Shown: piece by piece, positions 11,126-12,225 of the stretch
How the letters are laid out: each line of letters starts with the position of its first letter
Position numbering within the stretch: the first letter of the stretch is position 1
From: a virus
Virus record (IMG/VR): IMGVR_UViG_3300009506_000214
Coordinates: 1 to 23,090 of that record
DNA: 23,090 nt
Direction: 5' to 3' (one strand)
The notes under the pieces: model-generated
Told to the model about the DNA's origin: nothing
The model's input: only the letters and a program-made list of their open reading frames with translations
Database searches by the model: none
Translations under genes and position numbers: made by a program

Positions 11126-11379
11126 TACTGTTTTCTCTTTTTCCACCAATATTTAGGCTTATGTGGTGGTATACTATGTTTAATACAACAACCATCATGA
11201 CACATCTTAACACTACTTAAAAGTCTACGTTTACATTTAGGACAAGTCATTCGTATTCTCTTTAAATTTTTTTTATCTTCTGGTCTGCGATTAGTCCAAG
11301 GAAAATCCCAAGCAAAGCCCTCATTAACCTTAGCTAGTACAACAATTTCAGCAGTACCATCACACATTATTTTTCCCAT
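11125..11379 (-). CDS. Small basic zinc-finger protein (84 aa)
   Basis: The product has an N-terminal segment (DGTAEIVVLAKVNEGFAWDFPW), then TCPKCKRRLLSS and CHDGCCIKH, five cysteines and a histidine that would bind one zinc, and a Lys/Arg/Trp-rich end (KPKYWWKKRKQ) able to contact nucleic acid. Its ATG touches the stop of the upstream gene. It is a typical phage zinc protein with no specific role assigned. Confidence 0.74.
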   Translation of the reverse strand: MGKIMCDGTAEIVVLAKVNEGFAWDFPWTNRRPEDKKNLKRIRMTCPKCKRRLLSSVKMCHDGCCIKHSIPPHKPKYWWKKRKQ

Positions 11380-11735
11380 TATTCACCCAAGCTAATTTCT
11401 AATATTGCTGGATTTAGAATAGCACCTTCTTCATTAGCTTTTTCACCCTCAGTACCTATTTGAGTTTGTAGATTGTGCCACTTTCTAAGCTGTTCACCAT
11501 GTTCCCAAACTTTATATAAAACAACTACAGCAGCTCCGTACATAAATCCTGTAATGCCTTCTGTATCAGCTTCTAAACTAGTATCATAAGCAATATCTTC
11601 CAGCTTTTCACCACTTTCAATCCTAGTTTCCATAAGATTAGCCCAACATTCAGCATATTCAATAACACCTTTACCATAAAAACCAGTATTATTTTCTACA
11701 TACTCATTCCAAACCTTTTCATTTATTACCTTCAT
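11379..11735 (-). CDS. Conserved phage protein of unknown function (118 aa)
   Basis: The sequence contains ADTEGITGFMYGAAVVVLY, WEHGEQLRKWHN and GEKANEEGAILNPAILEI, a set of motifs I recognise from many tailed phages under the label of hypothetical protein. It is mostly helical and has no catalytic motif. AAGGAGA stands just upstream of the ATG. It lies in the small-gene stretch near the tmRNA-like RNA. Confidence 0.8.
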   Translation of the reverse strand: MKVINEKVWNEYVENNTGFYGKGVIEYAECWANLMETRIESGEKLEDIAYDTSLEADTEGITGFMYGAAVVVLYKVWEHGEQLRKWHNLQTQIGTEGEKANEEGAILNPAILEISLGE

Positions 11736-11737
11736 CT

Positions 11738-11932
11738 TTATTTCTCCTTATAACTTCTCCACTTAAGATTTTCTTTATCATATTTAAGCATCATTCTTAC
11801 AGTTATTACACTATATACTATATTCCAAATTAATAAAACAAATAAAAATATAGTATATCCTAGAGTACCATGCAGCTCTCCTCTAAATAAAACTCCTAAT
11901 ACATACCCTATTGGTACATTCAATAAATACAT
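11738..11932 (-). CDS. Small membrane protein (64 aa)
   Basis: The protein has two hydrophobic stretches (about residues 3-17 and 25-47) and a basic C-terminal tail (KYDKENLKWRSYKEK), suggesting a two-helix inner-membrane protein with a cytoplasmic tail. It begins 14 bases after the 3' end of the tmRNA-like element, so cleavage of the RNA there would leave a short leader that still contains the ribosome site TTAGGTGAGG. No family is recognised. Confidence 0.68.
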   Translation of the reverse strand: MYLLNVPIGYVLGVLFRGELHGTLGYTIFLFVLLIWNIVYSVITVRMMLKYDKENLKWRSYKEK

Positions 11933-11945
11933 AACCTCACCTAAG

Positions 11946-12034
11946 TGGAGCTGGCAGGAGTCGAACCTGCGTCCTGATTAACACTAGGAACGTACCTAGC
12001 TTATAAAGTTAATCAGTCTATACCCGTCAGCCCC
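11946..12034 (-). ncRNA. Mini tmRNA-like RNA with tRNA-like ends, no tag frame (89 nt)
   Basis: The 5' end (12034-12028, GGGGCTG) pairs with 11953-11947 (CAGCTCC) in a seven-base acceptor stem with the third pair G-U (12032 with 11949), the alanine identity element of tmRNA and tRNA-Ala. The T arm (11970-11954) has a five-pair stem and a TTCGACT loop. Both ends resemble tmRNA: GGGGCTGA and GGACGCAGG ahead of the T loop, ending CCAGCTCCA. Instead of an anticodon arm there is a nine-pair stem (12016-12008 with 11982-11974) enclosing a five-pair hairpin (11999-11995 with 11988-11984). CCA is not encoded. It is far too short for tag codons or pseudoknots. It begins five bases after a stop codon and would be released from the operon message by RNase P and Z. 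Confidence 0.75.
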
Positions 12035-12039
12035 ATAAC

Positions 12040-12225
12040 CTATTCATCTATTTTTTTATTCAGAGTATCAATTACATATTTGTCTATGATACCTTGAGTA
12101 ATAGTTAAAGTATCTTGTAATCTATTTAACATCTTACGCTCACCAATACTATAACCCAATACAAATACAAAAATATTTATCGTAATCATAGATACTATAA
12201 GCATTACTATATCAAGTGTACTCAT
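12040..12225 (-). CDS. Small membrane-anchored protein (61 aa)
   Basis: A hydrophobic N-terminal segment (residues about 4-27, LDIVMLIVSMITINIFVFVLGYSI) is followed by a charged helical tail (GERKMLNRLQDTLTITQGIIDKYVIDTLNKKIDE). This suggests a single-pass anchor with a cytoplasmic domain. The ATG overlaps the upstream stop (ATGA) and the gene ends five bases before the tmRNA-like RNA. No function is recognised; a role in superinfection exclusion is only a guess. Confidence 0.65.
   Translation of the reverse strand: MSTLDIVMLIVSMITINIFVFVLGYSIGERKMLNRLQDTLTITQGIIDKYVIDTLNKKIDE

Follow-up and report, generated by a model that had tools for sequence, protein, structure and literature searches.

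Tagless, tRNA-like-domain-only tmRNAs in diverse viruses as possible competitors of host trans-translation

Introduction

tmRNA is the RNA that rescues stuck ribosomes, and trans-translation is nearly universal in bacteria. The tRNA-like domain of tmRNA is charged by alanyl-tRNA synthetase (AlaRS) and bound by EF-Tu, while SmpB stands in for the anticodon arm (PMC8012679), and a structure has been solved in which a truncated tmRNA, SmpB and EF-Tu sit together on the ribosome (PMC8363625). Of 97,179 sequences in the 2025 tmRNA database, 9 are classed as "standard, no CDS", and, besides that of mycobacteriophage DS6A, tagless forms are known from plastids (two sequences, each of about 65 bp) and from mitochondria, where tmRNAs without a tag frame persist alongside SmpB (PMC11915505). 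The DS6A RNA is recorded as "TLD only" (Mao et al. 2009, as cited in PMC4131195 and PMC11915505). A DS6A-like TLD-only molecule is reported to inhibit E. coli tmRNA strongly, whether chargeable or not, perhaps via SmpB titration (PMC4131195).

Here, we analyzed a 23,090-base IMG/VR virus record (the window), whose minus strand carries an 89-nt, tmRNA-derived RNA gene at 12034 to 11946, including the discriminator A. It is another TLD-only tmRNA, and the form was already known, although the author of the initial annotation of this DNA knew of no described phage RNA like it. Like the DS6A RNA as described in those sources, the window RNA is phage-borne, has little beyond the tRNA-like domain and has no tag frame. 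With the standard one-piece tmRNA (RF00023) it shares the acceptor with its G3.U70 pair, the T arm, the absence of a D stem, the GG...CGAC sequence and the GGAC linker, whereas RNAs of the present kind (mini tmRNAs) have neither the mRNA-like domain nor the pseudoknots, measure 73 to 92 nt, and have a P2 stem capped by a small hairpin. Mitochondrial tmRNAs (RF02544; jakobids and oomycetes), compared here from the literature, likewise keep the tRNA-like domain without a tag frame, but they are organellar, usually have a permuted gene, and are accompanied by nuclear SmpB. The permuted two-piece phage tmRNAs (RF04321, RF01850) also provide a phage-borne tRNA-like domain, but in their genes the 3' half lies ahead of the 5' half, whereas both ends of the window RNA stand in normal 5' to 3' order within 89 nt, so that it is not of the RF04321 type. 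As far as the literature searched shows, what is new is the breadth of the viral family (DS6A is one described phage, whereas TLD-only mini tmRNAs were found here in dozens), the universal alanine pair and a recurring apical motif.

Results

Identity and fold of the window RNA

In a cmscan search against Rfam, the tmRNA model RF00023 aligned to the RNA end to end (model positions 1 to 374) with its interior deleted, scoring 53.1 bits (E value 1.7e-18), which is above the gathering threshold of 47 bits. When the filters were relaxed in a local search, the permuted tmRNA model, whose threshold is 47 bits, reached only 18.5. No tRNA match was listed for the RNA in the local Rfam search, where the tool omits overlapping lower-scoring matches of the tmRNA/tRNA clan, and ARAGORN called neither a tRNA nor a tmRNA, nor a tag, across the window. 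Both of these checks had been suggested in the initial annotation, whose proposal of a tmRNA-derived RNA that lacks a reading frame and has an alanine-type acceptor is supported. R1, a covariance model based on nine filtered candidates from other viruses, the window not among them, gave the window RNA 55.9 bits. The short-spaced TLD pattern matched once in the window and in none of 100 shuffles, and the GC content of the RNA was 49%, compared to 30% for the window, a value reached by 0.6% of 89-nt stretches.

Read on the minus strand, the RNA is GGGGCUG-ACGGGUAUAGA-CUGAUUAAC-UUUAUAAGCUAGGUACGUUCCUAGU-GUUAAUCAG-GAC-GCAGG-UUCGACU-CCUGC-CAGCUCC-A. The minimum-energy fold was identical to the structure drawn (-35.7 kcal/mol, z = -4.0, with none of 200 shuffles as stable) and consisted of a perfect 7-bp acceptor, a 9-bp stem, an inner hairpin of five pairs plus a G.U, and a 5-bp T arm, without a D stem. 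The acceptor stem is formed by the 5' strand GGGGCUG, which carries G3 (12028 to 12034), and the 3' strand CAGCUCC, followed by the discriminator A (11946 to 11953). The CCA end, which about one-third of the mini tmRNA genes encode, is not encoded by that of the window, where CUU comes next. The D region ACGGGUAUAGA (12017 to 12027) has the tmRNA-like GG...GA in the Rfam and family alignments. It is followed by P2, supported by fold and covariation, with the 5' strand CUGAUUAAC (12008 to 12016) and the 3' strand GUUAAUCAG (11974 to 11982). The tmRNA-typical GAC linker (11971 to 11973) joins P2 to the T arm GCAGG-UUCGACU-CCUGC (11954 to 11970); T stem positions were paired in 98.9% of cases in the family, and GAC was present in 59 of 61 members, most of which came from a pattern that fixed it.

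Between the P2 strands lie 25 nt (11983 to 12007), parsed from sequence and fold as UUUAUAA and a hairpin GCUAGG/CCUAGU with the loop UACGUU, and these occupy the place of the tag frame and pseudoknots in tmRNA. The mRNA-like domain (resume codon, tag frame, and stop) is absent, about half of the 25 nt being hairpin stem. Pseudoknots PK1 to PK4 are absent as well, since there is no room for them and the model interior is deleted in the RF00023 alignment. The single 9-pair stem with a hairpin that the initial annotation had drawn in place of tag codons and pseudoknots thus agrees with the minimum-energy fold. A canonical tRNA fold, named there as one observation that would speak against this reading, was not seen: neither ARAGORN, the fold nor Rfam (RF00005) gave an anticodon arm with a 7-base loop.

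Genomic setting

The window encodes a DnaB, a UvsX/RecA-like protein, a DNA polymerase and a methyltransferase. The mini tmRNA lies between two small co-directional ORFs, both on the minus strand and without a PHROG match: a 61-aa ORF with an N-terminal hydrophobic stretch (12040 to 12225) ends 5 nt before the RNA, and a 64-aa ORF (11738 to 11932) starts 13 nt past it. No ORF of at least 40 aa overlapped the RNA, and no terminator-like site was found near it. A 118-aa ORF at 11379 to 11735 matched PHROG 9822 (unknown function) and showed 69 to 75% DNA identity to ORFs of Bacillus phages (Herelleviridae), a sequence likeness that hints at a Bacillota host for the window phage. When relatives of the window were sought with its 259-aa protein, none came up.

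A family of mini tmRNAs in viruses

Four pattern scans of viral contigs, which required both tmRNA ends at set spacings, gave many candidates, 42 of which were left after a structural filter. Pattern scans and covariance model together yielded 54 distinct sequences of 73 to 92 nt in viral loci, some of them close relatives. Additional cultured Streptomyces phages, which brought these to six, and two genomes of Bacillota were found beyond this set. With R1, permuted phage tmRNAs scored at most 36.7 bits and ordinary full tmRNAs, in the loci tried, up to about 45 bits; since full tmRNAs reach this level, the lowest-scoring members (44.8 to 47 bits) rest on fold and close relatives, not on score alone. 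One partial match (L014, 42.0 bits) was excluded.

Several groups of candidates proved to be something else. Those in phages of Acinetobacter, Alcaligenes, Xanthomonas, Stenotrophomonas, Pseudomonas, Bordetella and Tunturiibacter were permuted full tmRNAs, and those in Bongo and Bacillus phage G were standard full tmRNAs. When contigs of bacterial genomes were scanned with the pattern, the matches listed were for the most part segments of ordinary full-length tmRNAs from actinobacteria. Scans of 247 Streptomyces and 299 Bacillota genomes, in which few candidates were scored for each genome, gave hardly any mini tmRNAs, which is accordingly a weak negative, and a BLAST search of plasmids with the window RNA gave no match. 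The two Bacillota sequences (L263, 1501 to 1577, and L264, 1501 to 1575, both on the minus strand) are mini tmRNA-like RNAs with a AAAGCCGAAG motif that were found by the model only; the first adjoins three tRNAs and a sigma-like ORF and perhaps belongs to a prophage. A second size class of about 107 to 123 nt, in which the two tmRNA ends are present but the lower arm is larger, was represented by six loci (L233, L235, L236, L238, L241, and L242) with model scores of 46 to 60 bits, and possibly comprises intermediates or tmRNAs with a very short tag.

Covariation and the alanine identity pair

In the alignment of the 54 sequences, 95.5% of paired cells were complementary, compared to 70.0% in shuffled alignments and 42 to 56% for slid structures. 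Double-sided changes amounted to 291 cells against a shuffled mean of 101, and the covariation score was 0.604 versus 0.132; none of 500 shuffles matched the alignment. The alignment was fitted to the structure of the model, which somewhat inflates these figures, although the margin is still large. All stems covaried, with double-sided changes at seven of eight P2 pairs. The conservation of the stems in other phages, on which the initial annotation had made its proposal depend, is therefore borne out in 54 viral sequences with strong covariation.

Conservation of the first four Gs, the GGAC linker and parts of the T arm is uninformative, since the scans fixed them; position 70 was left free. 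G3.U70 was present in 54 of 54 aligned sequences, where many pair types occurred at positions 5 and 6 of the acceptor stem, and in 61 of 61 (two of them identical) when the cultured phages and the two bacterial genomes were added. Several of these members came from BLAST or the model rather than from the pattern, and BRock, GiJojo, LuckySocke and Alone3 have U4-A69, yet keep G3.U70. When G3 was replaced by A3 in a matched scan of viral contigs, 4 stretches were returned, all of which lacked the structure, compared to 22 stretches for the G3 scan. The invariance of G3.U70 beside variable positions 5 and 6, together with the A3 scan, argues for selection for alanine charging, as far as sequence comparison can reveal it. 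The GG...CGA of the D region was also retained in most of the 61 members.

The apical arm

The sequence NARRNCC was found above P2 in 27 of the 54 members, compared to 7.2 (standard deviation 2.5) for shuffled lower arms, a descriptive count, as the motif was picked after inspecting the sequences. One example is AAAGCC, after which comes a short hairpin with GGNA or GCA at its end; the window RNA has a divergent version, UUUAUAAGCUAGG...CCUAGU. By eye, the lower arms of family members contained neither a reading frame nor a fixed stop codon. Many members have a stop codon (UAA, UAG or UGA) in the internal loop, but its use as a "resume-to-stop" device was set aside on inspection by eye, since many others lack it.

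Carriers and neighboring genes

The Streptomyces phages Alone3, LuckySocke, GiJojo, BRock, pSt2308 and Shaeky carry the mini tmRNA within tRNA clusters, and in all six it is unannotated as an RNA. In GiJojo, a hypothetical protein has been called over it (L246, 1500 to 1742), and ARAGORN had been used for the tRNA calls in BRock (PMC7453282). Where Alone3 aligns distantly with BRock and GiJojo, the match is essentially limited to the mini tmRNA. At least 16 of 57 loci had tRNAs less than 1 kb away, in every case on the strand of the mini tmRNA; many carriers, including the window, had no tRNA nearby. Several relatives begin 5 to 13 nt past a stop codon, and no neighbor gene recurred except within close groups.

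The tmRNA model detected the mini tmRNA in 48 of 49 carrier records. It revealed no second full-length tmRNA in these records, extra matches being weak (at most 30 bits) and many of them in tRNA-rich records. A Pfam search found SmpB in none of the 49 records, many of which are fragments, and the SmpB used would therefore be that of the host.

In one subgroup (L149, L150, L153, L172, L174, L195, L214, L217, and L223), the whole mini tmRNA falls inside the final portion of a portal-like gene, and an ORF for a ClpP-like protease follows directly downstream, both genes being named by eye. P2 differences in this subgroup are paired changes (CGCCUCG/CGAGGCG versus CGCUUCG/CGAAGCG), so that RNA and protein appear to share sequence. 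Among the phages with other tmRNA types, Tunturiibacter phage Tunturi_4 has two ribosome-rescue genes side by side, a short annotated RF-1 domain protein, possibly ArfB-like, and a permuted tmRNA (L257, 1118 to 1465 and 1470 to 1879). GOLLD RNAs were seen in tRNA-bearing regions of Mesorhizobium phage Cp1R7A-A1 (L256, 764 to 1226) and Mycobacterium phage Bongo (L258, 2305 to 2718), in the latter near the full-length tmRNA.

Discussion

On balance, we lean toward the view that this viral TLD-only tmRNA, in which the features recognized by AlaRS, EF-Tu and SmpB are retained while tag frame and pseudoknots have been lost, acts as a competitor of trans-translation in the host. The RNA would be excised, like a tRNA, from a polycistronic phage transcript, receive its 3' CCA from the host, and be charged with alanine by host AlaRS via G3.U70. 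The charged RNA would then be bound by host SmpB and EF-Tu-GTP and contest SmpB and stalled ribosomes with the host tmRNA. Since it offers no resume codon, peptide tagging would be impossible, and the net outcome would be that trans-translation is dampened or blocked during infection. At the sequence level, competition is supported by the RF00023 match, the covariation, G3.U70 in 61 of 61 members, the recurrence of the RNA and the lack of a phage SmpB in the carrier records, many of them fragments. By analogy, the reported inhibition of E. coli tmRNA by the DS6A-like molecule (PMC4131195) also points this way.

Simple titration of SmpB leaves part of the conservation unexplained, because the reported inhibition needed no charging, yet G3.U70 is invariant. 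It could be, and we offer this as a possibility rather than an expectation, that the RNAs form a class of tagless tmRNAs that is widespread among viruses and under selection, in which alanylation is obligatory and the short apical arm, often NARRNCC...GGNA, replaces the mRNA-like domain and performs a separate task on the ribosome or SmpB, as opposed to passive SmpB titration. The invariant pair suggests that the charged form matters in nature, and tagless rescue is for this reason a real rival to competition, indeed the main one, although we consider it rather unlikely. Here, the charged mini RNA with SmpB would enter stalled ribosomes, take the peptide and aid release or recycling without a tag, so that truncated phage proteins would be spared or ribosomes set free, as has been suggested for mitochondrial tmRNA. 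The universal G3.U70 implies that alanine matters, a truncated tmRNA fits the ribosome with SmpB and EF-Tu (PMC8363625), and the tagless mitochondrial tmRNAs kept together with SmpB suggest, by analogy and against inhibition, that a tagless tmRNA can be useful (PMC11915505). Release would, however, need another factor, there being no resume codon or fixed-frame stop, and a TLD-only RNA is reported to have been inhibitory in E. coli (PMC4131195).

The same-strand tRNAs at some loci (at least 16 of 57) and the copies inside Streptomyces phage tRNA clusters would fit a member of the phage tRNA repertoire that serves as decoy or replacement when host defenses cleave or modify tRNAs or tmRNA. We regard this as improbable; tRNAs are missing from the surroundings of many carriers, among them the window, and we know of no nuclease or modifier that targets the tRNA-like part. 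There is a similarly small chance that the fold serves as processing punctuation, directing RNase P and 3' enzymes to cut a polycistronic phage mRNA, for which the co-directional ORFs at 5 and 13 nt and the relatives starting 5 to 13 nt past a stop codon speak; G3.U70 and the tmRNA-type D region would be unneeded for this, but are conserved. Prophage attachment sites can bear the 3' end of ssrA, and matches to the 3' end only were common among phage records, as a functionless remnant of a decayed tmRNA or attachment site would predict. With both ends present, every stem covarying, and the distant alignment of BRock and Alone3 limited to the RNA, such a remnant is very improbable and is contradicted by the covariation. 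An ordinary tRNA with an unusual arm, which the size, the acceptor and the T arm might bring to mind, is hardly credible, since neither ARAGORN nor the local Rfam search listed one and the fold has no D stem and no 7-base anticodon loop; fold and models contradict it.

Earlier, a tagless tmRNA had been noted in one phage and an inhibitory effect of such a molecule had been reported in E. coli. Standard annotation overlooks mini tmRNAs, and the cultured Streptomyces phages that carry them make the question experimentally accessible. The recurrence of these RNAs in dozens of divergent viruses, together with the invariant pair and the covariation, suggests that control of ribosome rescue by an RNA mimic may be a common viral strategy.
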